Part shown: piece by piece, positions 6,034-56,811 of the stretch
Layout of the letters: every line of letters starts with the position of its first letter
How positions within the stretch are numbered: position 1 is the first letter of the stretch
Source: Hymenobacter sp. YIM 151858-1
GTDB lineage: Bacteria > Bacteroidota > Bacteroidia > Cytophagales > Hymenobacteraceae
DNA length: 64,000 nt
NCBI RefSeq assembly: GCF_025979705.1
Contig: NZ_CP110136.1
Span: 992,001-1,056,000, forward strand
Reading direction: 5' to 3'
Made by a program: the position numbers and the translations under genes
Notes under the pieces: generated by a model
The model's database searches: none
What the model saw: only the letters and a program-made list of their open reading frames with translations
Told to the model about the DNA's origin: nothing

Positions 6034-7151
6034 CTAGGGTTGCGCCACCTGCGCAACATCGCGGCCCTGAATGGCCGCGGCCATGAGCTCCGGAAACTTA
6101 TCGGGCGTGCAGGCAAAACTGGGAATACCTAGGGCCGCGAGCTTTTCGGCCACGGTACGATCGAACGAAGGAGCCCCTTCATCGCTCAGGCCCAGCAACA
6201 CCACAAACGTAACGCCAGCCGCTTTCAAGGCGGCGGCCCGCTTCAGCAGCTCGTTGGGGCTACCGCCTTCGTACAAGTCGCTGATGAGAACCAGAATGGT
6301 GTCGGTGGGGCGGGTAATAAGCTGCTGGCAATAGGTGAGGGCTAGGTTGATGTCGGTGCCGCCGCCCAGTTGAATGCCGAAGATCAAATCCACGGGGTCT
6401 TTCAGGTTCTGGGTGAGGTCGGCCACAGCCGTATCGAACACCACCATGTGGGTGCGCACCGCTCGCATCGAGGCCAGCACCGCCCCAAACACCCCCGCAT
6501 ACACCACCGAGGAGGCCATGGAGCCGCTTTGGTCAACGCAGAGCACGATTTCTTTGAGCGCCTGCCCGCGCCGCCCGTAGCCAATCAGTTTCTCCGGCAC
6601 GATGGTGCTGAGTGTGGGCTGGTAGTGCTTCAGGTTGGCCCGAATGGTAGCCGCCCAGTTAATCTCGCGGTAGCGCGGACGCGGGTTGCGCACGGCGCGG
6701 CTTAATGCACCTTGCACAGCCTGGCGCAGCGGATTGGCCAGCCGTTGTTCCAAATCGTGCACCACGCGCTGCACAACTTCGCGGGCGGTGTGTTTCGCCT
6801 TCGCGGGCATCACGCGGCTCAGCGACATGAGCATGCCCACCAGGTGCACATCGGGCTGCACGGTGCGCAGCACCTCGGGCTCGAGCAGGAGCTGCTGCAG
6901 ACCTAGGCGGTTCATGGCGTCTTTCTGTATACGGCCACCACCGACGATGGAAAGTACTGCCGGATGTCGCCCAACCAACGCGTTACCCGCGGCGACGACG
7001 CCCCCAACCCACCTTTGCGCTCGGCGGGCTTGCTGTCGTACAGCGCCGTGAGCACATCATCCATGCGGCCGTAGTCGGGCGAGAGGGGAATCTCGTTGCT
7101 GGCATCTGCCGACGAGCCAAGCACAAGCTTCCAGCGGACAGCGTTGCTCAT
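6034..7151 (-). pseudogene. vWA domain protein of a MoxR-vWA gene cluster, frameshifted
   Basis: Two adjacent frames together make one family member. The first frame (from ATG at 7151) gives MSNAVRWKLVLGSSADASNE through WLGDIRQYFPSSVVAV, then runs into a TGA near 6912. The second resumes at IQKDAMNRLGLQQLLLEPEV and continues to 6034 with the vWA domain: LCVDQSGSMASSVVYA (MIDAS DxSxS), then GGGTDINLA and LISDLYEGG. In relatives of this family the YFPSSVV and QKDAM segments are contiguous. One base is therefore missing around 6930 (GCCGTATACAG). No slippery sequence is present, so I read it as a true frameshift or a sequencing error. The role is probably a metal-ion-dependent partner of the MoxR ATPase encoded upstream. 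Confidence 0.8.
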
Positions 7152-7181
7152 GAAATGGTGAAGTTGCTTGTGTTCAGGTTA

Positions 7182-7733
7182 TTACCCTAGGTGCGCTTGG
7201 CGGCCGTAAGGGCTATCGGCGCGGTAGCGGCGCTCAAATTCCGCGCGGGTGCAAATGGACTTTACATCCGTTACGCGGTCAATAGCCAGTATTCCGTCGA
7301 GGTGGTCGATTTCGTGTTGGAGCAGCTCGGCCAGGTCGTCTTTCAGCCCTGCGCGGGTTTCGTGCCAGCTGCCACCTAGGTCTTGGTAGCGCACCGTTAT
7401 CCATTGGTGCCGCTCTACCTGCATAAAAATCGAGAGGAACGACAGGCAGGCATCCCACACCACCATGGTTTCGGGGCTGCGCTCCACAACGGTGGGGTTG
7501 ATGAGCGGCCACACCGGCTTGCCCGGCAGCCGCAGCACCACTATGCGCTGCAACACACCAATTTGCGGAGCGGCAATGGCCCGGCCGTAACCGGTGGTTT
7601 CGCGCCAGTGCGCAACGGTGTCGGTGAGGTCGGTAACCACTTGGGCCACGGCTGGTACGGTTGCGTCGGCTACGGGCTCGGCTACTTCGCGCAGCAGGGG
7701 GTTGCCAAGCTGCAGAATTTCGCGAATCGGCAT
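7182..7733 (-). CDS. def: peptide deformylase, divergent motif II
   Basis: The 183-residue protein has the three deformylase motifs. Motif I is GYGRAIAAPQIGV. Motif II is DACLS, in place of the usual EGCLS. Motif III is LLQHEIDHLDGIL, with the HExxH metal site. The metal-binding cysteine and both histidines are present, so hydrolysis of N-formyl groups is plausible. The motif II change suggests a secondary or specialised deformylase rather than the housekeeping one. It lies in the cytosol. It sits 30 bases downstream-to-upstream between the amidohydrolase gene and the vWA gene, all on the minus strand, and so probably shares their transcript. Confidence 0.82.
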   Translation of the reverse strand: MPIREILQLGNPLLREVAEPVADATVPAVAQVVTDLTDTVAHWRETTGYGRAIAAPQIGVLQRIVVLRLPGKPVWPLINPTVVERSPETMVVWDACLSFLSIFMQVERHQWITVRYQDLGGSWHETRAGLKDDLAELLQHEIDHLDGILAIDRVTDVKSICTRAEFERRYRADSPYGRQAHLG

Positions 7734-7745
7734 ACAGGGCGTGGG

Positions 7746-9182
7746 TTATTGATGTTTGACGGCTTGCACCATCTGGCGCAGGTCGGCGGCCGAGTACACC
7801 CGACCGCGCACCACCACCGTTTGGATCTGGCGTAGGCTGGAAATGTTTTCCAGCGGGTTCTTATTCAGCAACACCACATCGGCTTCTTTGCCGGGCTTGA
7901 TGCTGCCCGAGCGTTGATCGGCCTTCAGAAATTTAGCCCCGTTGATGGTGGCAGCTTGCAGTGCCTGGGCAGGCGTGAGCCCGGCTTGCACCATCAGCTC
8001 CAGCTCGCCCAGCAAGGAGGCGCCCGGGTACACGTAGGAGTTGAAGGGGCCGCTATCGGAGCCGGCGAGCAGCGTAACGCCCGCAGCCTGCATTTGCGGC
8101 ACCATGCTCATGAACTTCGCGCCGAGCTGCTTATTGAAGGCCCGCGTAGCAGCCGATTGTGCCCGGGCGCTGGCAATGCGGCGGGCGTACGTACGCTGAA
8201 TCTTTGGATCGATGTAGGCCAGTAGGGTGTCGCGCGCGTGGTCGGTTTCGGGCAGCTCCGTCAGTACTTTCTGGATGTGCAGGGTAGGCACCACGGCTGT
8301 GCGGTGCTTGGCCAGCATGCGGTAGGTGCTAGCGGCCGTGGCGGCGTCGTAGGTTTTGTATACGGTGGGCAGCACGGCAAACAGGCCCAAGGGCCTGCTC
8401 GTGCGCAGGCTGCTTTGCACCGCCGTGGTAATGCTGTCTTCCTTCGAGGAGCAAGCCTTGAACACGTAGTACAGGTGCTCCGAGGCATCGAGCCCGCGCT
8501 CCATGGCTTCGCGCAGCGTTACGGTGTAAGGCATGTGGCCGGTGGTGGTCATGCCCCGCTTTTCGGCGGCCGTAATGGCGCCCAGGAACGCCTCGCGCGA
8601 AACGGTGCTCTCGTAGAGCTTCACGTAGTCGACCTTCAGCTTCTGCAACGAGTCCAGTGCCTTGTTGATCTGTTCGGGCGTTTCTATCACCAACGAGCCC
8701 GGCCAGGTTGGGTACGGCCCGTCGAGCTTCGGGCCCGAGGTGAAAATGCGTGGCCCTGCCAGCCGGCCCGTCTGCATTTCCTGCCGCCAGCTGTAGATGG
8801 CGGGCGTAAGGTCGCCGCCGGCATCGCGCACGGTGGTGATGCCGTGGGCCAGGTACAAGGGCAGCAAGTTGCGGTTGGCTGCGGTAAGCGAGTCGCCGCC
8901 CCGGAAGTGCACGTGCATGTCCCAGAGGCCCGGAATGAGGTACTTGCCCTGTGCATCAATGGTTTGCTTGGCTGCGGCTGTTTGCGCGCCCGAGTTGCCG
9001 AGCCGCCGTATCAGCCCTTCGGAAATGGCCAGCGTTTGGTTGGGCAGAATACGGCCTTTCTCCACATCAACCACATTGGCGTGCGTAATGAGTAGGTCGT
9101 ACGGCTGTTGGGGCTGCTGACCGGCACAGCCACCTAGGAGCAAGCCCAACGAACTGGCAAGCAGGGCAGATGAAAGCTTCAT
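7746..9182 (-). CDS. amidohydrolase-family lipoprotein
   Basis: The 478-residue protein starts MKLSSALLASSLGLLLGGCA, a signal peptide with a lipobox ending in cysteine. The mature enzyme is probably anchored to a membrane. It has the amidohydrolase beginning (VVDVEKGRI, LIPGLWDMHVHFRGGDS with the HxH metal pair), a TTTGHMPY segment for a further histidine, ASEHLYYV, and AGSDSGPFNSYVYPG near the C-terminus with the metal-binding aspartate. This pattern matches imidazolonepropionase/prolidase-type amidohydrolases; the substrate is unknown. I chose the ATG at 9182 because it starts directly at the signal peptide. The gene lies 12 bases from the deformylase gene. Confidence 0.88.
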   Translation of the reverse strand: MKLSSALLASSLGLLLGGCAGQQPQQPYDLLITHANVVDVEKGRILPNQTLAISEGLIRRLGNSGAQTAAAKQTIDAQGKYLIPGLWDMHVHFRGGDSLTAANRNLLPLYLAHGITTVRDAGGDLTPAIYSWRQEMQTGRLAGPRIFTSGPKLDGPYPTWPGSLVIETPEQINKALDSLQKLKVDYVKLYESTVSREAFLGAITAAEKRGMTTTGHMPYTVTLREAMERGLDASEHLYYVFKACSSKEDSITTAVQSSLRTSRPLGLFAVLPTVYKTYDAATAASTYRMLAKHRTAVVPTLHIQKVLTELPETDHARDTLLAYIDPKIQRTYARRIASARAQSAATRAFNKQLGAKFMSMVPQMQAAGVTLLAGSDSGPFNSYVYPGASLLGELELMVQAGLTPAQALQAATINGAKFLKADQRSGSIKPGKEADVVLLNKNPLENISSLRQIQTVVVRGRVYSAADLRQMVQAVKHQ

Positions 9183-9338
9183 TGGGGCGGAAGCAAGAGC
9201 TTGGAAGAGGCAGGAAGTTAGCACAGAATCAAAGCAGCTGGAGGCGTGAAGGTGCTTTTAAGGCTTAGCTGCTGGGGTGCCGGGGTAAAGAGGCTTTGGT
9301 ATCGTGTGGCGAAGCTTTCTGAATTTAATGCCTGCTAC

Positions 9339-11648
9339 TTAGGTCAGCAGTTCGCGCAGGACTGGCAGCACGCGCATACCGCGCTCAAGATCTAAGTCGG
9401 CATCTTGGGGCGTTTTAGCGGTTGGTCCGCCAACTGCTAAGGCCAATACTTGCTCGCGTTCGGGCTGGCTGAAGTCGGCAAAGGAGCGACGCAGCAGCGG
9501 TACAATTTCCTGGAACACCGTTTCATCAAGCCCCGAAAGCCACTCATCGAGCAAATCGAACAGCACGCGGTTATGAATGAGCAGCAGCCCGCTGCCGCGC
9601 AAAAAGCCTTCAATCCAGGCGGTGGCGTACTCGGTGGGTTGGGCAGCCGATAAGGCCAAGCCAAGGAGGGTAGCCGTAGCTTCGGGGGTTAGCTGTTGCG
9701 CATCGAACAGGAGGCGCGTGGTGGCACCGGCCAGCAAGCCGTTGCTGGCCGGCTGACGAGCAATATTGTGCAGGGCGGTGTACCAGTCGGTTTGTTGTGT
9801 TTCGTCGGGTAGCAGGCGAATCGCTTGGTGCGCTGCTTCGATGCGTTCCAAGAGCTGGCGGGCAGCGTCTTGGTCGAGGCCGGTGGTGGCCAGCGGCAGC
9901 GAAATGCACAGGCGGGGCACCAAATGATGTACCACTTGGGCAACCTGGGCGCTTTCGGTGCGGCGCACGTTGCCGTAGCGCAGCACGTTTACCAGCGGCG
10001 GCAAGGCGGCCAGCAAATGAGCTACGTCGCGGGTATCGGCGCTGAGGGTTTCGAGGCGCGTAACCATGGCCGGCACGGCAGGGCCTAGGTCGGCCTGCAG
10101 CGCTTCCTCCAGCAGTTGGCTGATTTGCCCTAGGTCGGTGGCCTGCTGGGCGCGGTGGTTGGCGGCCCCACTGGCGGCCAGCAGCACGGTGTTGCCCCAG
10201 CGGCCGGCTTCGAGCACCTGCAGCACCATTTCGGGCCGCCATTGCAGCTCCCACACTTCGTGAAAGGTGCCGCTTTTGCCCTCCACGCGCTGCGGTTTGC
10301 CCCACCGAATGCCCAGCAGCTGCAGCCGATGCAGCAAGTGGCTGCGCCCTAGGTCGAGGTCTTTGCGCAGGTCGAGGGCCAAGGTTTTGCGAGCGGCTTC
10401 GGGCTTCAGGCGTAAGGTTTTCTGCTGCTGCCCTAGGTCTTGCTGCAGCGGCGAGGCGGGCAGCTCCTCGGGTACTTCGCCCAGCGCTTCGCCAATTACC
10501 AGCTGCTGATGCACCAGTTGCAGCGCCTCGGCGTAGCCACCGCCGAAGATGCTTACGGCGGCTTCCTCCAGCTCTTCGATACCCGGCAAAGCCAGCCCGC
10601 GCACGGCAGCCAACGCCTCGGCCAGCCGCACGCCCTCAATGGCGTGGGCCGATGAGGCGTCTATTTGCTGTTGCCGGAGCAGGTGGGCCGCCCGCACCAT
10701 CCAGTGCGTTACAACCCGCTCGTGCGGCTCCGTAAACAGCAGCTCGTACCAGGCCGGCGAGAGTACCCCCGCGCCGTAACCCGACTGCCGGGCCAGCCGA
10801 TCGTACGTCCAGGGTACCCAGGTGGCTTCGGTCTTCACCTTACCTAGGCCTTTAAGCCGGGCTTTGTCGTCCTTGGCGTAGCGCGGCAGCTCCTCGGCGC
10901 GCAGCACCGGCGCGTGCCAGGCGCCGCACACCACCGCCACGCGCTGGTAACCCTGCTTGAGGGTATTGCGCAGGGTTTCGCGCATGTAGGCCTCGCGCAG
11001 CAACGTTTCCGCCGATTCGGGCTGGGCCAGCTCTTCCCGCAAAGCGCTCATCATCTGCAGCACCACTGCAAAGGCATCGGCGTGGCCGGCGGAATGCTCG
11101 ATGCGGGCTTCCCACCAACGCTCCCCGTCGGTGTAGCCGTCGAGGCGGGCAAGGTGGGCAATGGGATCGAGGCGGAGGGGGGCCTCACCCCCCGGCCCCC
11201 TCTCCGAAAGAGAGGGGGAGCCAGACGGTTCGGTTTCGGTAGCTAATGTTGGGTCTTCGTTAACGTTATTGTCGGTTTCCGCCTCGGTTGGCGAGCCGGA
11301 GCCGGGCCTACCAGCTGATACGGGCAAAGCAAAGTGCAGCGTCATCGGCAAATCGAAGCAGCGCAGGTGAGCACCGTGTTGCTGGCACCACAGCGCCGCT
11401 TGCCACTCGGGCGAGAAATGGGCGAACGGCAGAAAAGTGGCCTGGGCGTGCTGCTTCGGGTTGTAAATGAGCAAAGCCACGGGCGGCTTTAGGCCAGGGT
11501 CGGCCGCCAATGCCATAGCTTGTTCGCCGTCGGCGGGGCATTCGAGCAGCACGACGTCGGGCTGAAAATCGTCCAGTGCCTTCAGCAGGCTGGCCGTGCT
11601 GCCTGGGCCGTGGTGGCGAATGCCGAATAGGCGGAGGTCGGTGGGCAT
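9339..11648 (-). CDS. DUF5682 family protein of the MoxR-vWA cluster
   Basis: The 769-residue protein starts MPTDLRLFGIRHHGPGSTAS and continues with VVLLECPADGEQAMALA. Both are hallmarks of DUF5682, a family found beside MoxR ATPases, vWA proteins, DUF5691 and SWIM proteins. A later segment (TLKQGYQRVAVVCGAWHAPV) recalls the TraB/EreA-like fold, in which a histidine and glutamates could be catalytic (inference). The C-terminal half is alpha-helical. There is no signal peptide or membrane segment. Around residue 145-158 the coding sequence contains an in-frame dispersed palindrome (11176-11222) that encodes a low-complexity insert, SLSERGPGGEAPLR. The molecular function is not established. Confidence 0.85.
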   Translation of the reverse strand: MPTDLRLFGIRHHGPGSTASLLKALDDFQPDVVLLECPADGEQAMALAADPGLKPPVALLIYNPKQHAQATFLPFAHFSPEWQAALWCQQHGAHLRCFDLPMTLHFALPVSAGRPGSGSPTEAETDNNVNEDPTLATETEPSGSPSLSERGPGGEAPLRLDPIAHLARLDGYTDGERWWEARIEHSAGHADAFAVVLQMMSALREELAQPESAETLLREAYMRETLRNTLKQGYQRVAVVCGAWHAPVLRAEELPRYAKDDKARLKGLGKVKTEATWVPWTYDRLARQSGYGAGVLSPAWYELLFTEPHERVVTHWMVRAAHLLRQQQIDASSAHAIEGVRLAEALAAVRGLALPGIEELEEAAVSIFGGGYAEALQLVHQQLVIGEALGEVPEELPASPLQQDLGQQQKTLRLKPEAARKTLALDLRKDLDLGRSHLLHRLQLLGIRWGKPQRVEGKSGTFHEVWELQWRPEMVLQVLEAGRWGNTVLLAASGAANHRAQQATDLGQISQLLEEALQADLGPAVPAMVTRLETLSADTRDVAHLLAALPPLVNVLRYGNVRRTESAQVAQVVHHLVPRLCISLPLATTGLDQDAARQLLERIEAAHQAIRLLPDETQQTDWYTALHNIARQPASNGLLAGATTRLLFDAQQLTPEATATLLGLALSAAQPTEYATAWIEGFLRGSGLLLIHNRVLFDLLDEWLSGLDETVFQEIVPLLRRSFADFSQPEREQVLALAVGGPTAKTPQDADLDLERGMRVLPVLRELLT
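11176..11222. repeat. dispersed GC-rich palindrome inserted in frame in a coding gene
   Basis: The core is CCCCCTCTC - CGAAA - GAGAGGGGG (11196-11218), preceded by GCCTCACCCCCCGG. I recognise this as a type of dispersed repeat usually found between genes. Here it lies inside the DUF5682 gene. On the minus strand it is read as SLSERGPGGEAPLR without a stop. Its ends flow into Ser/Thr/Glu-rich sequence, so it probably forms a surface linker. Confidence 0.7.
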
Positions 11649-11663
11649 ACCTGGTAGTCTAGC

Positions 11664-12710
11664 CTATGGTACCAGCTGAAAAATCTGCCCATCCCAAATG
11701 CCTAAAGCACCGTTTCGGATCAGCAATACCAACTTGTTATCGGAAGTAAAATCCATCTTGCTGGCCTCGGTATGTTGTTTAGCTGGGCCTGGCCAGGTAG
11801 GAGACCAAACTAGTTGCCAGGCACTGGCCTTGCTAAGGTCTGTCGTTATGCTTCCCTTGAAAATGCCGTTTTGTGAGTAGTAGTAGCAGCGTTGCTCAGC
11901 CGCATTGTATGCAAGTGCCCGGATGTATTCGCCTTCCTCACTCCCGAATGTTACAGTTCGGTAGTTCTTATCCCCACTGCTATTGAATACATGCTGGGCC
12001 TGAAACCCATCTAAACGGGTGATACAACCAGACGAAGTACCGTGCGCAACTGCGCCGGACAAGTATACCTGAGAACCGACTTGACAAAAGGAATTGACGG
12101 GGCTCAAACAGGCCAGCGAATCCCGAAACGAAACAGGAATGAACGCCTGCTTCTGCGTGTCGAAAGCATACAGGTTACCTCCCCATTCGCCCTGGCCGAA
12201 ACCCAGCCACAGAACATCGTTGCGGTCTAATAGCGTGGCATCGGGTACAGGCTGCCATTTGTAATATCGATTCAAACTCTCTTTTGGGGCAAAATACTTG
12301 TTGGTTGAAACGTTAAGGAGCCCGGTTTCGGTAGCAGCCCAAACCTGATGTAGTTTGTCAAGGGCCAAGAAAGTGGTCTTTGCTGGCAGCTGGCCTATTT
12401 GGTTAGCCTTTCCGTTGCTCGTGTTGAGCTGATATACCACCGAATTACAGACGGCAACCAACTCACCCGTTTTGGTGCTGTGAATGCTTGATATAGGGCC
12501 TTCTAAACCCGCTTTATATGGCCGTTCATTGCCCTTGGAAGTAAAGGACATAAGCAGCCCATCCACGTCCAGAGCCCAGATTGTACTGTCCAGCACCACA
12601 AAGTCTTTGTATGCTCCTGTATGCACAAGGGGCAGCTTAGACTTTTTGCGTCCTTGGCTTAGTGCACTTACACTCAGCAGCAGAAGGCTCAGCAGTAAGT
12701 AAATCCTCAT
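11664..12710 (-). CDS. secreted propeller-like protein of unknown function
   Basis: The 348-residue protein starts MRIYLLLSLLLLSVSALSQG, a clear signal peptide. The remainder is a chain of short repeats such as DSTIWALDVDGLLMSF, KLHQVWAATETGLLNVS and RNDVLWLGFGQGEWGGN. These resemble the beta-propeller blades of two-component-regulator-type or sugar-binding propellers. I chose the ATG at 12710 over a longer frame because it begins the signal peptide. The gene sits 8 bases after the MoxR ATPase gene and just before DUF5682, so it should be co-transcribed. Its base composition is visibly more AT-rich than its neighbours, suggesting a later insertion into the cluster. No specific function can be assigned. 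Confidence 0.72.
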   Translation of the reverse strand: MRIYLLLSLLLLSVSALSQGRKKSKLPLVHTGAYKDFVVLDSTIWALDVDGLLMSFTSKGNERPYKAGLEGPISSIHSTKTGELVAVCNSVVYQLNTSNGKANQIGQLPAKTTFLALDKLHQVWAATETGLLNVSTNKYFAPKESLNRYYKWQPVPDATLLDRNDVLWLGFGQGEWGGNLYAFDTQKQAFIPVSFRDSLACLSPVNSFCQVGSQVYLSGAVAHGTSSGCITRLDGFQAQHVFNSSGDKNYRTVTFGSEEGEYIRALAYNAAEQRCYYYSQNGIFKGSITTDLSKASAWQLVWSPTWPGPAKQHTEASKMDFTSDNKLVLLIRNGALGIWDGQIFQLVP

Positions 12711-12718
12711 TTCCTTTT

Positions 12719-13819
12719 CTACTCCACTACCTCGCGGCAGGCCCGGTACAAATCCTTCCACCCGTCGCGCTCCTTTACCACCGTTTCCAGGTACTCCAGC
12801 CACACCACGCGGTCCTGCACCGGGTCTTTCACCACAGCGCCGGTAAGGCTGGCGGCGAGGTCGGCGGCTTGCAGGGTACCGTCGCCGAAGTAGGCAGCCA
12901 GGGCCAAACCGCTGTTCAGCACCGAAATGGCCTCGCCGGTGCTCAGGGTGCCGCTGGGGCTTTTGAGCTTGGTTTTGCCGTTTTCCGTTACGCCCGAGCG
13001 TAGTTCGCGGAAGATGGTTACCAAGCGGCTGATCTGCTCCAGAGCCGCGGTGGTAGGTGGCAGTTGCAGCGCACGGCCGGTTTTTTCCACGCGCGAGTGC
13101 ACAATCTGCACTTCCTCGGCTACGGAGGTGGGCAGGGGCAGCACCACGGTGTTGAAGCGGCGGCGCAGGGCGCTGCTCAGCTCGTTTACGCCTTTGTCGC
13201 GGTCGTTGGCGGTGGCTATTACGTTGAAGCCGCGGGTGGCTTGCACCTCGGTAGCCAGCTCGGGCACGGGCAGCACTTTTTCGGAGAGGACGGTGATGAG
13301 CGTATCTTGCACGTCGGAGGGGATGCGCGTGAGTTCTTCAACCCGCACCAGGGCGCCTTCTTGCATGCCTTTAAGCAGGGGCGAGGGCACCAGCGCGGCA
13401 GGCGAGGGGCCTTCGGCAATGAGGCGGGCGTAGTTCCAGGAGTAGCGAATGGCGTCTTCGGAGGTACCGGCCGTGCCTTGAATAAGCAGGTTGCTGTGCC
13501 CGCTGATGGCGGCTGTGAGGTGCTCGGAGACCCAGCTCTTGGCCGTGCCGGGCACGCCGAGCAGCAGCAGAGCGCGGTCGGTGGCGAGGGTGGCCACGGC
13601 AATTTCCATCAGGCGGCGCTGCCCAATGTACTTGGGCTCAATTTCGGAGCCGTTGTCGAGCGTGCCGCCGAGCAGGTACGTGACTACAGCCCAGGGCGAG
13701 AGTTGCCAACCGGGCGGCTTTGGTCGGTCGTCGATAGCGGCAAGCGCGGCAAGTTCTTCGGCGTACTGCACCTCGGCATGCGGGCGCAGAATATTATCAA
13801 GAGCAGGGGTGGAGGACAT
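12719..13819 (-). CDS. MoxR-type AAA ATPase
   Basis: The 366-residue protein starts MSSTPALDNILRPHAEVQYA. Walker A is LLLLGVPGTAKSW near residue 85 and Walker B is LVRVEELTRIPSD. Sensor and finger segments are FNVIATANDRDKGV and SSALRRRFNTVVLPLP. This is the MoxR/CbxQ-like group of AAA+ ATPases, which act as chaperones for vWA partner proteins. The ATG at 13819 was chosen because the additional upstream residues of the longer frame (to 13897) are not family-like. The vWA partner is encoded further down the same strand (6034-7151), and DUF5691 and SWIM genes lie upstream. This is the likely motor of the putative complex. Confidence 0.9.
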   Translation of the reverse strand: MSSTPALDNILRPHAEVQYAEELAALAAIDDRPKPPGWQLSPWAVVTYLLGGTLDNGSEIEPKYIGQRRLMEIAVATLATDRALLLLGVPGTAKSWVSEHLTAAISGHSNLLIQGTAGTSEDAIRYSWNYARLIAEGPSPAALVPSPLLKGMQEGALVRVEELTRIPSDVQDTLITVLSEKVLPVPELATEVQATRGFNVIATANDRDKGVNELSSALRRRFNTVVLPLPTSVAEEVQIVHSRVEKTGRALQLPPTTAALEQISRLVTIFRELRSGVTENGKTKLKSPSGTLSTGEAISVLNSGLALAAYFGDGTLQAADLAASLTGAVVKDPVQDRVVWLEYLETVVKERDGWKDLYRACREVVE

Positions 13820-14064
13820 AGTTGGGAGGGAAGAACTAAAGCTACTGATTAGCGGATAAGGGTAGAAGGATGGAACCGTTGCTTTGGCATGCTGCACCTA
13901 GGGGTACTAATCCAGTCATCGAGTGGCGAAGGATGACTTTCAACGGTTATCAACCACCCCTAGCCCACGCCGCTCCAAGCGCGGAATTCATCTGAGGAGG
14001 GGAACTAGCTTGTAGCTTTAGCTACACCGATTGAAAAGGTGCGGTAAAAAGAGTAAGGTTCTGC
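13820..14064. other. 245-base gap with a short hairpin inside the MoxR cluster
   Basis: No gene is seen. The gap holds a small perfect inverted repeat GTAGCT-TT-AGCTAC near 14011-14024, close behind the DUF5691 stop, and one CCTAGG. The length suggests a separate promoter for the AAA ATPase gene or an attenuating site, which would split the cluster into two transcripts. I could not identify a clear TAnnTTTG element. Confidence 0.4.
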
Positions 14065-15621
14065 TTAGCCTTCCGGGGCAGGAGGTTCGGTTAGCGTTTG
14101 AGATAGTTGCTGGCGAAACTGCAGGGTATCGAGCAGTTGGTTTATTTGGTTGTTTAGCATCGGCTCTACATCCAGGAGTGGGTGCAGGGCGGTGGCGCAT
14201 AAATCGTACTGCGCGGGCGGTACGGCACGTTGCATGTGGCGCAAAAGCTGCGCAATGCGAGCGGAAAGTGCATAACGCTGGATGTTGTTAGGCACAACGA
14301 CGGTATTCCCGATCGTGCTAAGCGCCAAATTGGTTAGCGCTTGGGGCCACGGACCTGGGGCGTTTAGGAGCAGCGCTTCCCAGCGGCCTTCGGGTTGGCT
14401 AAAGCGGGGCTGCCTGGGCAATTGCTCGAGCAGCAGCTGCGCAAATTCGGCGGGGTTGAGCAGCGCAGCGGCTTGCGGCGCCGTAAGCGGCGGCACGGTT
14501 GGTTGCGCTAGCTGCAACGAGAGATATGCGCGTGCCCACTCCGCGGAGCGGTGAAGCAGAAGCGCCTGCTGCCAAGCGGTAAGTAGCACCGACGCCCACT
14601 CGCTTTCGGCAGCCAGCTCCAATATTTTGGCGGGAGATATTTCCCAATGCGCAGCCCAACGCTCGGGCGCGATAAGTGCCAGCAGCTGACCTAGCACTAC
14701 TGCTTTCTCGCCGCTAAACCGGGCGTCTTTCTGCTCGATACCGTCGGCCTGCCATTCAGTTTTCCATACCTCCGGTAAGTGTACTTCAAGGCTTTTGCCG
14801 CGCAGTAAGGATTTCTTCAGCCTGACGTACTGCTGGGCCCGTTGCCACAGGCGTTCGGCCAAGGCGCTGCCCTTTAGCCGGGCCAACAGTGGCGCAACGG
14901 TTTGTCGCACTTCTTTGCTTTTCGACAGCAGGTATTGTTCGAGCAAAGGCGCATCAGCCTCGCTCAAACCTGCGGCCAGTGTGCCGAGCAAGATTGCTTG
15001 TTGCCTGGCCGATTCTTGCGGTAAAGCCGCGGCGAGTAGCTCACGGGCCTGCGCCGCGTTGCGGAAGCGCAGGTGTTGCAAATACTGCTGCCGTTGCGTT
15101 ATGGTGCCGGTTTCCCAATCGGCCTCGCTGCTTTCCGAAGCACCGAACAGCTGTGCCCAGGCGGAGTTCAGGCCAGCAAGCCAGCGGCCTCGCTCGCCCA
15201 TTACAGCCGCGGTGTTGGCGCGCAGCTCGGGGCGTGCGGCTGCGTAGCTGAGCATGGGCACAAGCAAGTGGTGCGGCACCCGGCGGCCGTGTTGCGCCAG
15301 CTGGTGCAGGTACTCGCCGAACACATCGGGGTAGCTACCGCTGAGCAGTACCCGCAAGGCATCTTGCCCTTGCGGACCTAGGGCAGGCAAGGTTTCGGCC
15401 GGAGCCGTTTCGGGCAAGGCTAAGCTGGCAGCGGGAGCCCGGAAGCCAGCCTTGCGAATAAGCCCTAGGGTGCCGGCAGCCCGGAGTACCTGAGCCTCGC
15501 GTGCCAGCTCGGGCTGCTCGGGTATAGCAGCCAGTTTGGGTACCGGTTCGCCGCTTTGGCGCGTGCCGAGCAGCGCCACTCGCAGCAGCTGCGACCAATC
15601 GGATTGCAGGTTCGGCTCCAT
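14065..15621 (-). CDS. DUF5691 family protein
   Basis: The 518-residue protein starts MEPNLQSDWSQLLRVALLGT, the typical opening of DUF5691 proteins (W..LL..ALLGT). The rest is almost wholly alpha-helical with HEAT-like character, for example QYLQHLRFRNAAQARELLAA and ALPQESARQQAILLGTLAAG. The segment QYLLSKSKEVRQTVAPLLAR is a good HEAT repeat. This suggests a scaffold that binds other proteins. No signal or membrane segment is present. The start codon directly abuts the stop of the SWIM gene at 15622, so the two are translationally coupled. DUF5691 is known only by its association with SWIM, MoxR, DUF5682 and vWA genes, as here. Confidence 0.85.
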   Translation of the reverse strand: MEPNLQSDWSQLLRVALLGTRQSGEPVPKLAAIPEQPELAREAQVLRAAGTLGLIRKAGFRAPAASLALPETAPAETLPALGPQGQDALRVLLSGSYPDVFGEYLHQLAQHGRRVPHHLLVPMLSYAAARPELRANTAAVMGERGRWLAGLNSAWAQLFGASESSEADWETGTITQRQQYLQHLRFRNAAQARELLAAALPQESARQQAILLGTLAAGLSEADAPLLEQYLLSKSKEVRQTVAPLLARLKGSALAERLWQRAQQYVRLKKSLLRGKSLEVHLPEVWKTEWQADGIEQKDARFSGEKAVVLGQLLALIAPERWAAHWEISPAKILELAAESEWASVLLTAWQQALLLHRSAEWARAYLSLQLAQPTVPPLTAPQAAALLNPAEFAQLLLEQLPRQPRFSQPEGRWEALLLNAPGPWPQALTNLALSTIGNTVVVPNNIQRYALSARIAQLLRHMQRAVPPAQYDLCATALHPLLDVEPMLNNQINQLLDTLQFRQQLSQTLTEPPAPEG

Positions 15622-16968
15622 TTAGCGGCCAACTGGTTGGGTGAGGGCGGTATAGCCAAGGGGCAGCAGGGCGCGGCCGTTCCACTCGCCAAACACGCTG
15701 AGCGGGTGCCCGCCGCTGGCCGCCAACAAAGCCCAGCTTTGATCGGCATTGGCGCGCACCGGTAGCTGCGCGCCGGTTGCCGTATGGTGAAGCTGCATGC
15801 TGCCATCGGGCATTAGCACGGGCACCACGCCGCTTAGGGTAGCTGGCCATTCGCGCAGCCAAGGCAACCGACCTAGGGCGCTGGCGTAGGCATCGAGCAG
15901 CTCGGTGGGGCTGGTAGCGGGCGGCAATGTAGGCGTGGGCTGCAGGCCGATAAAAATCCAGTCGGTGGCGGGTACGGCGCGCAAGGGTACGCTGCCCGGG
16001 TAAAAGGCCAGGCCGCCTTGGTACCTGCCGTGGGGCACGAGCGCACTGGCGAAAGCCTGTCCGCCAAACGAGTACTCCAGCACCAGGGCATAACGCGCCT
16101 GTTGTTCGGCCCACAACCAGGTGCGCCTTGCCAGCAGGCGCTCCTCTTCGGTGGTTATCTGGCCAACCACAAGCCACGTGTCGGCTACGGGTACCTGTTG
16201 GGCTAGCACATCCTCCTTCTTCGCGTTCACGCCAATAAGCTGCAGCACGTCGTGGCGTAGGTCGGTGGGGAGTTCGGGCAGCCGCAGCACAGCCCGCGTT
16301 AGCAAGTAAAGCTCACCTAGGCGGGCGAGTTGGCGCTCGGGCCAATCGGTACCTGAGTAGCGTAGGGTGGGCAGCTCGCGCAGCACGGCGGCAAGCCCCG
16401 GCAACTTGTCGTCGACGAGGCGGGCGGCTTGGTGCTCCCAAAAGCTGGCGGGCTGCTTTTCCGTTTGAGCCAAGCCAGCACCCATCAGGTCGTGCAGCCA
16501 GGTGAGCAGCTCAGCGGCGCCGCGCTGCATGCGTTCCAAGCGCTGCCCCGAAACTTGCAGCACCCCTCGCGGCTTCTCGTCAGCTGATTCAGTTGGAACA
16601 ACTACTTCGTTAGGCTCGGCAGGACTGCTTTTCGAGATTTTGGTTTGCTGTCGTTTGTCGAGCCATTCTGCTAGCCAAGCCGGCGCGCTGCTTTCACCAA
16701 ATAACTGGGGCTGCCTTGCTAGCAGCAGGAGCAGGCCGGCCCCGTGCTTACACGGGAACACGCGGCTGGGGCACGAGCATTTAAAGGCTGGTTCGCCTAG
16801 GTCGATGCCCACCTGGTATGGTTTGGAGCCACTGCCAGCACACGCGCCCCACGCAGCCAGGTTGGTTTTGCCTAGGTTGTTCCATTGGCTGGGTTTGGCT
16901 AGGTCGAGGCCGCGCTTAAGCGTACCGGGGTCGGTAATCAGTGCCCGAACCTGGTCTTCAGTCCACAT
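15622..16968 (-). CDS. SWIM zinc-finger protein
   Basis: The 448-residue protein starts MWTEDQVRALITDPGTLKRG. Residues around 62-76 hold FKCSCPSRVFPCKH, a CxCx(6)CxH SWIM zinc finger. A linker rich in Ser/Lys/Glu follows (KISKSSPAEPNEVVVP), then an alpha/beta region of 300 residues without recognisable enzyme motifs. SWIM fingers bind DNA or proteins. This gene is the first of the block of minus-strand genes with DUF5691, MoxR, DUF5682 and vWA genes behind it. Its TAG or TAA stop is adjacent to the next ATG. It probably recruits the complex to its target (inference). Confidence 0.88.
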   Translation of the reverse strand: MWTEDQVRALITDPGTLKRGLDLAKPSQWNNLGKTNLAAWGACAGSGSKPYQVGIDLGEPAFKCSCPSRVFPCKHGAGLLLLLARQPQLFGESSAPAWLAEWLDKRQQTKISKSSPAEPNEVVVPTESADEKPRGVLQVSGQRLERMQRGAAELLTWLHDLMGAGLAQTEKQPASFWEHQAARLVDDKLPGLAAVLRELPTLRYSGTDWPERQLARLGELYLLTRAVLRLPELPTDLRHDVLQLIGVNAKKEDVLAQQVPVADTWLVVGQITTEEERLLARRTWLWAEQQARYALVLEYSFGGQAFASALVPHGRYQGGLAFYPGSVPLRAVPATDWIFIGLQPTPTLPPATSPTELLDAYASALGRLPWLREWPATLSGVVPVLMPDGSMQLHHTATGAQLPVRANADQSWALLAASGGHPLSVFGEWNGRALLPLGYTALTQPVGR

Positions 16969-49319: not shown

Positions 49320-52300
49320 TTACATCTTCACCAGCTTCAGTACGTGGGCCTGGCCATTGCCGCTTACACGCACAATGTAAGAGCCCTTGGCGAAGCGGCT
49401 CGTTTGTAGCGGCAGCAGTTCGCCACCTTTGCCTTCGAGGCTTGCCACGTGGCGGCCTTCAGCACCTAGGATTTCAACGGAATACGTGCCCTGGGGCAGG
49501 CTCGTCAGGTCGAGCTTGGCATCGGCGGCGGTGGGGTTGGGGTAAACCACCACGAGGCTGGTTTTCGAGCCCGAGAACATCACTGCCTGGATGTTGCTGT
49601 ACGCGCTCTTGCCATCGGCATCAACCTGGCGCAGGCGGTAGTAGCGCAGTCCGGCCACTTTGCCAGCTCCTTTGTCAACGAAGCGGTAATCGTTGCGACG
49701 GTTGCTGTTACCAACACCGGCCACATTGCCTACTTTCTCGAAGTTCACCCCGTCGCTCGAGCGCTCCAGCTCAAAGCCAGCGTTGTTTTTCTCCTGAGCC
49801 GTAGCCCAAGTCAGCAGACCGTCGAGGCCATTGGCCTGGGCCTTAAACTCGATCAGTTCAACCGGCAGCGGCGTCAGAATATCCGCAGATCGGAAGTCCA
49901 CATCGGTCTGGGCCACGGTGCGCTTGGGCGCCGTGGACGGCATGCCGCCATAGGCCGGGTCGTAGATATCCACAAGGCCGTTGAAGTTGTCGTCGTGGAA
50001 GTACGTGCTGTTGATGTCGAGGAAGTTGGGTACGTCGTCGTTGTCCGAATCCTGCAGGAAAGGTGAATTCACCGTGCCGCTACCAGGTACAACTACGCTG
50101 TAGTAAGATGCTTTCGACGGGTTGTTTACGGCAAACAGACGGGCCAAGGCAACAATCTCATCACCTGCTCTTCCGTCGCGGTCGGTATCAAAGCCTTCGG
50201 TCCAGTCGGCGGTCTGTTGGTAGATGGGTAGGTTGACGCGGGTAGCGTTGTCGCCGTCCGAATCGTTGTCGAACATGTCGGCAATTGCATCACCATCGGG
50301 ATTGTTGTTGCGCGTGTTAATAACATTGCCGCCATTATTGCCATCGTAAGCATCACGGATGCCGTCACCATCTGTATCGATGTTGAAGTCAATAGCGGCT
50401 TTGCGTAAGTTGTATGTTGATGTAGTCAGGGCTTCTATCTCATCAGAAATGCCGTCGTTATCGGAATCAACATCGAGAAAGTTATAATTGGTTACTGTAG
50501 CGTTGGATGCAGTGAAGTTATCCGAATCATTGTCGGTGAGGGTGTATCTAACGTTGTCTACTTCTGTGTTATTTGAAGTACGAAGTTCTACAGCGTTAGG
50601 CAAACCATTGGCACCAACCGCATTTGCGATACTTCCTAGCGTATTTACAAATCGACCTTGAGCTTCGCTGTAAGCGCTGCGGTTGTTCCCGTTGTTGCTT
50701 GTCCAAACCAAAGCTGTGGTACCCGCCTCAAATGCGTCGGACAAGCCGTCATTGTCAGAGTCTAAGTCAAAGTGGTTTGGGATACCGTCGCGGTCCGTGT
50801 CGAAAATGTCATTTACTCCATCGTTGTTCAGGTCGCGGAAAGCACCTAATACTGGGTGAACGTAAGCACCGTCGAGGTAGAGAATTGGGGAGCTGCCATC
50901 CGCGAAGCTGCTTGGGTCAATGCTACTCGCGCTGGTGCCCGATGTGCTCATCGCTTCGACTACGTCAAGGATACCGTCGTTGTCATCGTCGATGTCGGTT
51001 GCATCTGCAACACCATCTCCGTCGTTGTCGCAGGCAGAGCTATAGGTAAACTCAGTGTCACCAACGAATACCGAGAAACCGTAAGTCCAAGTATTTACGG
51101 TATAGTTGTTACCCTCATCGTTTGTGGTACCCCAAGCGTGGGCTCCGGTTGCGGAGCTTACACCCGATAGCTGGGCAGTCCGAATTGCAGTTGGGAAGGC
51201 AGTAAGGTTAGTGTCGTCCCAATAAAGCAGATCGAAGTTGTTGCCGTTGGCAGGACGTATGTTCCGCACCCGGAAACCATCGGGGTTACCTTCCGCATCA
51301 TACACCGGGAAGTTAACAGGGGCACCAAAGCTGGTGAAATCGAAGCGAATAGTAGTGCCTGCAGCTACTTGCGTACCCGTAGGCGAGTTACCATCAACGT
51401 CGCCAGCAGCCTTCCGACGACCATTCCAGATTACAGTGTTAGGTACCCCTGCCTGTAGCGTTTGACGCAGTAATGGCTCGTCAGCGTCACGCACGTTGTC
51501 GCGGTCAATGTCGATTAGAATATCGAACTGACCGGTTTCGGCGCTTTGTGTGGTAAAGGCCACCTCGGTAACGCCATTGCGGCAGTACGGGCGAGGCGTT
51601 ACGCTTACCGTAGGAGTGGGAGCACTCGGCCAAACCGCCGGGTCGGGGTTGTTTACAAATGCAGGGTATTGTGTGTAGCTAGTCCGGGTAGTTTGGCTAC
51701 GACGCCGGGCCTCAATAGTAGTACCTACGGCAGTTGTTGAGCCAAATTCGTTGGCTACGAAGTAGAACGAGAGGGGGCGCATACCAGCCAACTCCACTTC
51801 CTTTACGTAATACTGCCCCGGAGCCTGCCTACTTTCCACCATCGGGTAGAGCTTGAAAGTAGACGAGAGGCGGTTCTGGAAGTTATTTGTGCCTCCAGAG
51901 TTACCAGCGAAGAAGCCCCAGTGCTTGCTGTACAGGCGGCCGGGCTTTTCTACGCCGTTAGCGCGTACCGTGAAGTCCCAGAAATCATAGGCGGAACGCT
52001 TGTTGCTATCCGTCATGTTCTCCTCACCGACTTGGGTAAACTCGACATAAAAGTCTTGTGCTGCGCCTGTGTTGTTGGTGTATACCAAGGCGTTGTAACC
52101 GCCAGCAGCGGGTTGCGGGCCGGCAAAAGCTTCAGCTCCGGTGTTAATAACACCTTGCTGCTGAAGCAGGGTTGATTGGCCTACGCTATTGGGGTCACGT
52201 GCAAGTACATCTTGTTTAACAATTTGACCTGCTCCCGCTCCGTAACGCAACGTTATTACTAGGTCACTCTGTGCAACACCCGTAGCCGCTGGATCTATCG

Positions 52301-55316: not shown

Positions 55317-56066
55317 ATGGTTTCGAAAGCCGTTGCCAAGTACGTGCAGCAACTGCACCAAAAAAAATATCGTCAGCGCACGGGAGCCTTTTTGGTTGAG
55401 GGCGCAAAAAGCGTGCGTGAGCTGCTAAGTTCCGGACTTCAGGTGGAACGGTTGCTGCTCACGGCTGAGTTTGCCGCCGCGCCCGGCCTTCCGCCGGCTC
55501 CCAAAGGCGTGCCGGTCGACATGGTTTCGGCGGATGAGCTGACCCGCTTAGGTACCCTGCAGCACAATGACACGGCCCTGGCCGTGGCCCGCATTCCGGA
55601 GGAAGCGCCGCTGGCGGCCAAGCCCGGCCACCTGCTGCTGGCCCTCGACCAGGTGCGCGACCCCGGCAACGTGGGCACCCTCATCCGGCTTGCCGATTGG
55701 TACGGCCTGGGCGGAGTGGTGTTGTCGGAAACCTGCGCCGATGCCTGGAACCCCAAAACCGTGGCGGCTACCATGGGCTCGTTTACGCGGGTGCGGGTGT
55801 GGCAACGCGACCTGCCCGAGTGGCTGGCTCACCTGCCCAAAGACCTACCCGTGTACGGCGCCGATTTGCACGGCGACAACGTGCACCGCCAGCAGCTTAC
55901 CCCCAAAGGCGTACTGGTAATGGGCAGCGAGTCGCACGGGCTTACCCCCGAGGTAGAAGCCTGCCTTACCCAGCGCCTGCACATTCCGGGGCAAGGTGGC
56001 GCCGAAAGCCTAAACGTAGCCATTTCGGCCGCCATCCTGCTCGATAATTTCTTCCGGCATCTGTAA
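55317..56066 (+). CDS. TrmH/SpoU-family RNA 2'-O-methyltransferase
   Basis: The 249-residue protein has an N-terminal L30e-like RNA-binding segment (KYRQRTGAFLVEGAKSVREL). The knotted SPOUT domain follows, with motifs VRDPGNVGTLIRLADW, VLVMGSESHGL and ESLNVAISAAILL. It methylates the 2'-O of a ribose in rRNA or tRNA using SAM, in the cytosol. The target cannot be told from sequence. Its length matches the family. An IS element now lies 18 bases after its stop and separates it from a terminator. Confidence 0.93.
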   Translation: MVSKAVAKYVQQLHQKKYRQRTGAFLVEGAKSVRELLSSGLQVERLLLTAEFAAAPGLPPAPKGVPVDMVSADELTRLGTLQHNDTALAVARIPEEAPLAAKPGHLLLALDQVRDPGNVGTLIRLADWYGLGGVVLSETCADAWNPKTVAATMGSFTRVRVWQRDLPEWLAHLPKDLPVYGADLHGDNVHRQQLTPKGVLVMGSESHGLTPEVEACLTQRLHIPGQGGAESLNVAISAAILLDNFFRHL

Positions 56067-56122: not shown

Positions 56123-56811
56123 ATGCAATGTACTCGGTGTGGCAGTGACTCGAACTGCAAAAACGGGCTGATGCGGGGCAAGCAGCGCTACCGCTGCCTG
56201 GCCTGCGGCTACAATTACACGGGCGGTGTGGGCGTGGCCTATCCGGACGAGCAGCGGCAGTTGGCGCTCAAGCTGTACCTGGAAGGCCTGGGCCTGCGCG
56301 CCATCGGGCGGGTGCTGGGCGTGTCGAACGTGACCATCCTGCGCTGGGTGCGGGCGTACGGCCAGCGTGCCCAACAGCAAGCGACCGACGCGCCGGGGCA
56401 GGCCGTGCGCATCGGGGAAGTGGACGAGTTGCACAGCTACGTGGGGCAGAAAAAAACGCCTGTTGGGTCTGGCTCGCGGTAGACCGGGAGCGAAAACAGG
56501 TGCTCGATGCCGTCGTTGGCGCCCGCGACGAGGCGACCGGCGCCCGGCTGTTCGCCTCGTTGGCCCGCCACGCGTTCCAACTCGTGTGCACGGACTACTA
56601 CCGGCCGTACCGGGCCTTGGTGCCGATCCACTTGCACTACCGCAGCAAGGCCGAAACCACTTCGGTGGAGAGCTGCAACAGCTTGCTGCGCCACTACCTG
56701 GCCCGCTTCCGCCGCCGCACCAAGTGCTACAGCAAGTGCAAACGCATGCTGCTGCAAGCTGTCCTGCTGCTACGCGCCAAGAAAAACGGCACCTTAGCTA
56801 TGCTGCTGTAG
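56123..56811 (+). CDS. IS1-like transposase (InsA-InsB type, -1 frameshift)
   Basis: The first frame (56123-56482) gives an InsA-like zinc-finger/HTH part: CTRCGSDSNCKNGLMRGKQR, YRCLACGYNYT, and LEGLGLRAIGRVLGVSNVTI. It reads to GQKK over AAAAAAAC at 56450-56457. Slipping back one base continues as KKNACWVWLAVDRERK and then the DDE part to 56811: FQLVCTDYYRPYRAL and KAETTSVESCNSLLRHYL. The A-run is the expected place for -1 frameshifting, as in IS1. The DDE residues are in VDRER, TDYY and VESCN. The stop lies inside the right inverted repeat. The protein cuts and joins DNA at the element ends. Confidence 0.88.
56450..56457 (+). promoter_or_regulatory. frameshift site of the IS transposase (A7C)
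   Basis: Seven A and one C (AAA AAA ACG in the first frame). Lys-AAA can slip back by one to read AAC, joining the two transposase frames. The A-run could also promote transcriptional slippage. Confidence 0.75.

Follow-up and report, generated by a model that had tools for sequence, protein, structure and literature searches.

The window analysed here, a stretch of 64,000 nucleotides, comes from Hymenobacter sp. YIM 151858-1 (contig NZ_CP110136.1, G000:C1:992001-1056000 in our coordinates; genome of 4.62 Mb). Between its positions 6034 and 16968 there are eight genes, all on the minus strand, that code for a SWIM zinc-finger protein, a DUF5691 protein, a MoxR ATPase, a propeller-like protein, a DUF5682 protein, an amidohydrolase, a peptide deformylase and a vWA protein. 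An earlier sequence-only reading had named these genes and their order, and Pfam matches bear this out, with all of them present on one strand, here the minus strand, and SWIM falling just under its cut-off. Five of the genes form a core set that is real and old and is widespread in bacteria; the remaining three seem to be passengers of variable presence. The features of the block are the following:

15622..16968, minus strand: SWIM zinc-finger protein of 448 amino acids, core gene 1; SWIM motif CSCPSRVFPCKH; C-terminal half predicted to be beta-rich
14065..15621, minus strand: DUF5691 protein of 518 amino acids, core gene 2; Pfam expect value (E) 1.7e-116; HEAT-repeat-like by profile
12719..13897 (open reading frame as listed), minus strand: YehL-type MoxR AAA+ ATPase, core gene 3; AAA_5 E 6.9e-35; P-loop GVPGTAKS
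11664..12710, minus strand: propeller-like secreted protein, apparent passenger; signal peptide judged by eye; without Pfam family; weak PorZ-like match, E 0.0016
9339..11648, minus strand: DUF5682 protein of 769 amino acids, core gene 4; Pfam E 1.3e-246; probably TraB/TIKI-like over the N-terminal ~300 amino acids; helical C-terminal half
7746..9224, minus strand: amidohydrolase with a lipobox-like start judged by eye, apparent passenger; Pfam Amidohydro_1 E 3.7e-28
7182..7733, minus strand: divergent peptide deformylase, one of two deformylase genes in the genome, apparent passenger; Pep_deformylase E 6.3e-38
~6034..7151, minus strand: vWA protein (CoxE/YehP-like), core gene 5, frame broken once in the N-terminal part; VWA_CoxE E 1.7e-50

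A core of five genes in fixed order

We have searched for DUF5682 homologues over genome_contigs (84,980 species) and found at least 571 confirmed among at least 589 matched stretches, from which the best 80 were kept. The window, E. coli and relatives (12 loci) bring the number of loci examined to 94. Hymenobacter spp. were the closest named DUF5682 relatives among the matches listed. The order SWIM–DUF5691–MoxR–DUF5682–vWA, on one strand, was identical in all 51 of the 51 complete loci, which is far beyond chance. By record title the complete loci include members of Bacteroidota, Cyanobacteria, Chloroflexota, Acidobacteriota, Planctomycetota and Proteobacteria, and annotated plasmid loci add Rhizobium and Deinococcus. 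The remaining 43 loci were cut by contig ends, had the E. coli arrangement described below or contained fewer core genes in the stretch. For 11 of these the whole genome was searched and DUF5691 was found encoded in 10; in L048 and L107 it lies inside the locus itself. The vWA gene of L056 is on the opposite strand. Two loci with DUF5691 only (L032 and L033) do not enter the order and gap counts.

The presence of the genes is also shared. A profile over 58 genomes (own genome included), which covers DUF5682, DUF5691 and SWIM, found them in 11, 10 and 11 genomes respectively, with all three in the same 10. The extra genomes are G050, which holds a divergent, split DUF5682 of the E. coli type, and G045, with a match to the zinc-finger motif alone. 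SWIM and DUF5691 are fused in four loci (three Hymenobacteraceae-type, one planctomycete), an open frame of 1066 amino acids common to both hints at a fifth such fusion in G024, and a Streptomyces plasmid carries a fusion of DUF5682 to vWA; gene fusions of this kind are no more than an indirect sign of a putative complex of MoxR, vWA and DUF5682. That the five core genes travel together, as had been proposed, is thus supported by the fixed order, the near-equal profiles, the fusions and the joint absence from two relatives that is described below.

Two ARRANGEMENTS of the set were found, and the E. coli-type one is a rearranged form. By annotation the E. coli genes yehL, yehM, yehP and yehQ are the MoxR, DUF5682, vWA and SWIM genes, and PF18934 scored above its cut-off in E. 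coli. The MoxR profile finds YehL at 445 bits, although it may have absorbed YehL during iteration. Our analysis indicates that the window set belongs to the YehL-type MoxR–vWA class; YehL is a named subfamily of MoxR (PMC3893208, PMC11432383). Of 5426 E. coli genomes examined, 5162 contain at least 80% of the yehLMPQ DNA. DUF5691 was not found in the E. coli-type form, with E. coli used as control. DUF4132 is present in the cluster in E. coli, Allorhizobium, Sinorhizobium, Iodobacter, Proteus and Nonomuraea, in Streptomyces by annotation and, nearby by position, in G050, which gives 8 of 8 E. coli-type loci. Six Chitinophagaceae loci hold both DUF5691 and DUF4132, the latter after vWA, and a match to DUF4132 is lacking in the own genome. 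HEAT repeats were recognised in one DUF4132 protein (E 2.9e-10) and seem to be present in DUF5691 too, so that the two are perhaps interchangeable helical partners, and DUF4132 may stand in for DUF5691 in the E. coli-type form.

The junctions of the set differ in how open they are to other genes. Between SWIM and DUF5691 the coupling pointed out earlier was confirmed, the DUF5691 ATG following immediately after the SWIM stop codon. Gaps longer than 500 bp were found in 2 of 54 loci between SWIM and DUF5691, in 0 of 60 between DUF5691 and MoxR, in 23 of 66 between MoxR and DUF5682 and in 15 of 61 between DUF5682 and vWA. The SWIM–DUF5691 gap of L022 exceeds this length solely because DUF5691 is split in two frames, and that of L099 likewise exceeds 500 bp. 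The MoxR–DUF5682 junction was open in all 16 loci of the Hymenobacter-type group (a grouping of our own, outside which L025, of the same family, was counted) versus 7 of 50 elsewhere, and its inserts vary by locus: SUKH-1-like, propeller-like, and types judged by eye such as M1-type peptidases. Ten related proteins stand at this junction in six Hymenobacter-type loci (L024, L027, L037, L039, L042 and L043), and the two of them that were checked with Pfam were both SUKH-1 (SMI1/KNR4). At the same junction the Allochromatium locus L101 has a gene that by eye resembles a DNA methyltransferase, with a companion.

Two close relatives, G005 and G007, are informative in this respect. Their flanks are mostly 83–93% identical to the window where they match, and between the same neighbours they keep the amidohydrolase and the deformylase (proteins 81–84% identical). 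The genes missing there are SWIM, DUF5691, MoxR, the propeller-like gene and DUF5682 to one side of this pair and vWA to its other side. DUF5682, DUF5691 and SWIM were absent from the whole of both genomes, whereas MoxR and vWA were looked for, and found missing, at the cluster site. The gaps were inspected for remains of core genes, and nothing convincing was seen (best E 0.98). Loss of the machine is likelier than gain in these two strains, because G001, G002 and G004 hold it between the same neighbours and G006 has an amidohydrolase and a deformylase fragment behind DUF5682. The deformylase, or a fragment of it, adjoins the amidohydrolase in the window (7182-9224), L024, L036, L037, G005 and G007, and the amidohydrolase of L038 stands without a deformylase match.

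The sequence-only reading had left room for the extra enzymes to be parts of the machine, and this found no support: the enzyme genes are inserts that vary between loci, and the amidohydrolase and deformylase occur by themselves at sites that lack the machine. Their common strand and short gaps, and the propeller homologues found right after MoxR in five loci (the window and four others), would fit a functional role of the propeller-like protein, the amidohydrolase and the deformylase in the machine. Against it, the MoxR–DUF5682 junction is mostly closed outside the Hymenobacter-type group, two relatives have the pair without the machine, and both the propeller-like protein and the amidohydrolase carry export signals by eye. 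We consider such a role very improbable and largely refuted. As core genes the three were ruled out by the junction gaps, the variable inserts and the G005 and G007 sites, and they look like passengers at permissive junctions. Of the two deformylases in the genome this one has the lower score; it keeps the metal ligands (Cys and HExDH) but departs from the usual motifs I and II.

The core proteins and the broken vWA gene

The SWIM protein scored 18.4 bits against a Pfam cut-off of 19.6, that is, 1.2 bits short, and its CxCx6CxH ligands C64, C66, C73 and H75 were invariant in a 43-row alignment. Its structure was predicted with a predicted local distance difference test (pLDDT) score of 90.9. 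Foldseek with this model gave NlpE as best match (E 6.6e-4), followed by weak matches, among them OB-fold DNA-binding proteins and ZSWIM8, with low template modelling scores, and they were not relied on; the SWIM profile had no match among PDB sequences up to E 1. DUF5691 looks HEAT-like by sequence profile, as positions ~180–275 match designed HEAT/alphaRep chains (best E 1.2e-5). In MoxR the stretches GVPGTAKS, EELTR and IATAN, which we take to be the P-loop, the catalytic Glu and the sensor Asn, are conserved in the consensus of 65 sequences, and the presumed Walker-B position (VEELTR) has E in place of the usual D. The closest solved ATPases by sequence were midasin (4.9e-13) and NorQ (6.8e-7). 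The overlap between the listed MoxR and propeller frames comes from the choice of starts: MoxR probably begins at an internal ATG, and for the propeller-like protein, whose N-terminus by eye looks like a signal peptide, 12710 is the probable start. Promoter scans of the sigma-70 and Bacteroidota types gave 0 and 0 matches, and terminator-like sites were about as many as expected (14 versus 13.8).

The vWA gene announced by the sequence-only reading is there; the open reading frame 6034-6978 that had been given as the gene is only its C-terminal part. The start of the protein, MSNAVRWKLVLG..., sits in a different frame (6912-7178), so that in its own genome the gene occupies two frames instead of one. 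Compared with 12 of 12 relatives the window has a one-base gap, and the open frames of all 12 cross the site. Therefore the vWA gene spans ~6034-7151 and is frameshifted, or the assembly contains an error. A second intact copy was not found in the own genome, where the query with an intact relative returned these two pieces only. The C-terminal frame has the metal-ion-dependent adhesion site, with DQSGS, GGGTD and SDLYEGG, the consensus of 61 rows being DQSGSM, GGGTDI and DLyEGG.

At this site a real break is plausible, though an assembly error is possible, because the machine is absent in two close relatives and DUF5691 is split in another member of the genus, G002; the broken gene suggests that the machine is under loss in the own genome, and we infer decay rather than sequencing error. 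In a frameshift screen of the window, 19 raw split rows were obtained over 92 matched open reading frames with G005 and 7 over 56 with G007. One row was checked at the DNA level and proved intergenic, for a second the overlapping frames were inspected, and the remainder were judged to be mostly shadow frames; since most rows were judged without individual check, a general assembly error rate is possible. The split of DUF5691 over two frames in G002 (L022, G002:C1:75346-76850) marks a second relative with a possibly broken machine.

The DUF5682 domain and the function of the set

The model of DUF5682 (pLDDT 86.9) has an alpha/beta part in the first 300 residues, and the remainder is mainly helical. 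Residues R11, H12, E36, R218, E219, G242 and H245 were invariant in 41 DUF5682 sequences that include both arrangements and E. coli YehM, and G9 was conserved in at least 90% of them. We take GxxH…E…R…GxxH to be the residue set of TIKI/TraB proteins, and G9xxH12, E36, R218 and G242xxH245 fit it. When the N-terminal domain was aligned with the TraB profile by hhalign, 237–238 columns were matched with the motifs in register and scores of 14.25–14.9, to be compared with 12.0 for ChaN–TraB, 16.4 for ChaN–Ere, 5.7 for Ere–TraB and less than 7 for unrelated controls. Column shuffles reached the DUF5682–TraB score in 0 of 200 cases (score 14.25) and, with another alignment, in 1 of 93. In a Pfam scan of the 41 N-terminal domains TraB was the sole other family found in more than two members (four, best E 0.054), and there was one weak ChaN match. 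For a TIKI-family peptidase, essential His and Glu residues are described near the core strands (PMC6254334). The N-terminal domain of DUF5682 is thus probably TIKI/TraB-like, although this is not proven.

We propose, tentatively and with somewhat less than even confidence, that the products of the five core genes make up a single ATP-driven machine in the cytoplasm, belonging to the YehL-type MoxR–vWA class and having a TIKI-like DUF5682 as main client. They would form a physical complex, and in it a ring of MoxR would exert a pull or twist on the vWA adaptor in the manner of NorQ on NorD. The main client would be the co-encoded DUF5682, a putative TIKI/TraB-like hydrolase domain on a helical solenoid, and MoxR–vWA would activate it by remodelling or by aiding the placement of metal in the His/Glu site. 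The suggestion is made by analogy with NorQ, whose twisting of the vWA protein NorD permits metal insertion (PMC13036017). SWIM and its HEAT-repeat partner (DUF5691, or DUF4132 in the E. coli-type form) may be the recognition and scaffold arm for the targets. A bolder version, that YehL-type clusters are an unnamed class of ATP-gated TIKI-family hydrolase spread over many phyla and comprising near-core genes of E. coli, in which a MoxR–vWA motor would metallate or unlock the DUF5682 active site, with interchangeable SWIM–HEAT arms (DUF5691/DUF4132) that deliver targets and a possible link to DNA damage, appears unlikely as a whole.

Several results weigh against the proposal. By ordinary profile scores the TIKI/TraB assignment is below significance. 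A control profile from the C-terminal part of DUF5682 scored 15.24, possibly because its range touches the N-domain alignment at the end. DUF5682 is not matched by the profiles of ChaN and erythromycin esterase, their scores being reached by 60 of 93 and 29 of 93 shuffles. UreF, found in two members, matched the window DUF5682 better than TraB did (E 0.00062). Lower E than the best TraB match was also reached by seven families with single matches (CBM46, DUF7586, Ferrochelatase and four more). Foldseek with the whole DUF5682 model gave only helical repeats among the 50 of 790 matches listed, and the best match of the DUF5682 profile to PDB sequences had E 0.25. As for the set, G036 keeps DUF5682, DUF5691 and SWIM on three contigs, and the vWA frameshift may be a sequencing error.

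Other functions have to be considered, and they are not mutually exclusive. The set could be a maturation chaperone for an outside client with DUF5682 as a chaperone part, in the way of RavA–ViaA or NorQ–NorD. The MoxR proteins that have been studied mature or remodel dedicated complexes (PMC3893208, PMC13036017), and the nearest solved relatives, midasin and NorQ, point in the same direction. However, the invariant His, Glu and Arg of DUF5682 suggest a catalytic or metal site, and DUF4132 was the recurring neighbour among those tested, no recurring metabolic or respiratory gene having been noticed in flanks that were not clustered systematically; we find this alternative rather doubtful. A conflict (anti-phage or anti-invader) system, in which SWIM and the HEAT protein sense the invader and MoxR–vWA unleashes a DUF5682 effector, would be in line with the MoxR–vWA cores of ternary conflict systems (PMC7159879) and with the patchy distribution in Bacteroidota (DUF5691 in 8 of 296 genomes, 6 of them above the cut-off; DUF5682 in 11 of the 58 relatives). 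It would also suit the variable genes of the MoxR–DUF5682 junction, some SUKH-1 immunity-like and one methyltransferase-like by eye (L101), and the matches in 36 of 72,556 plasmid records, several of them chromosome-sized, once beside type I restriction genes. Such a system is nevertheless unlikely: a Pfam scan of the cluster proteins revealed none of the third components known from published ternary systems, the near-core presence of yehLMPQ in E. coli is unlike a mobile island, and DUF5682 appeared at E 1e-5 in 1 of 50,697 phage records. Besides, PADLOC (2023 release, E up to 0.01) gave 0 models for the eight proteins of 6034-16968, by which a catalogued defence system was ruled out. One unverified 'bacteriophage' record (MT835988.1, L199, a scaffold of 14 kb that may be bacterial DNA) contains MoxR, DUF5682 and vWA in order, and on the Methylosinus plasmid L191 vWA matches fall in three overlapping frames with no listed gene, near insertion sequences.

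A machine of the DNA-damage response that works with DUF4132 and WGR proteins would account for the constant company of DUF4132 in the E. coli-type loci and for its place after vWA in the Chitinophagaceae. The yehF-yehI stretch, which we take to be molR, has a one-mismatch LexA-box-like site just upstream of yehF, but one-mismatch sites are near chance there (13 versus 9.2 expected, with 13 of 100 shuffles reaching 13) and no exact LexA box was found in the stretch. E. coli molR is listed as LexA-regulated (PMC11039860, PMC4576408), and in D. radiodurans DdrO is described as targeting DUF4132 and WGR genes, with higher levels of their products under mitomycin C (PMC8533742). Since the own genome lacks a DUF4132 match and a search of the region upstream of SWIM in 57 loci, with seven exact LexA/DdrO box patterns, turned up a single palindrome (L112), we give this explanation, too, little credence. 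Our preferred reading is still the MoxR–vWA machine with DUF5682 as client, and the MoxR–vWA frame proposed earlier was the right one.

Elsewhere in the window, positions 50001-52000 have a G+C (guanine plus cytosine) fraction of 0.523, most of the other 2-kb blocks being near 0.6 or higher. Insertion-sequence-like frames (with an InsA-like start by eye) lie at 56123-56811 beside a gene that by eye resembles a SpoU-like methyltransferase (55317-56066).

Relation to known systems

No description of the five-gene set was found in the open-licence literature, where DUF5682, DUF5691 and their Pfam numbers went unnamed in the texts searched. Two or more of the names yehL, yehM, yehP, yehQ and yehI occur in six papers, several of which, judging by their titles, match by coincidence of words, and in none of the six does such a name stand in the title or abstract. 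The available portions of the MoxR subfamily literature (PMC3893208, PMC11432383) name no client of YehL. Compared with the sequence-only reading, the broken vWA gene, the kinship with E. coli yehLMPQ and the enzyme-like domain of DUF5682 are new.

Like the window set, the ternary conflict systems (VMAP, iSTAND, FtsH, beta-propeller) are built on a MoxR–vWA core, and a GxxxTAKS P-loop, as in the window MoxR, is described for the FtsH and propeller ternary types (PMC7159879). The window set differs in that no VMAP, iSTAND, FtsH or vWA-fused propeller was found with Pfam and PADLOC. The published beta-propeller ternary system was rejected as a candidate, because the propeller-like protein is separate and secreted instead of fused to vWA and the bpMoxR match of the ATPase was weak, 24.9 bits with a cut-off of 27. 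NorQ–NorD and RavA–ViaA also pair a MoxR ATPase with a vWA protein, and we know of no DUF5682, SWIM or HEAT partner in them. Their described clients are respiratory or lysine-decarboxylase complexes.

The TIKI/TraB/erythromycin-esterase/ChaN superfamily resembles DUF5682 in the GxxH, E, R and GxxH motifs, in register with the TraB profile, and differs in that DUF5682 has a long extra helical half at its C-terminus and that ChaN and Ere profiles do not match it. To our knowledge no member of this superfamily is driven by a MoxR–vWA pair. Should DUF5682 prove to be a hydrolase, an anonymous and very widespread machine would gain a testable biochemical activity.

The nearest counterpart is yehLMPQ, which like the window set has MoxR, DUF5682, vWA and SWIM genes clustered on one strand. 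In contrast, its SWIM gene comes last and has two SWIM motifs, a number counted in three E. coli-type loci (E. coli, Allorhizobium and G050), and DUF4132 (YehI) and WGR (YehF) genes lie upstream, whereas DUF5691 was not found in E. coli. The comparison separates the machine from its passengers, ties the set to E. coli K-12 and names the DUF5682 residues whose change should abolish function.

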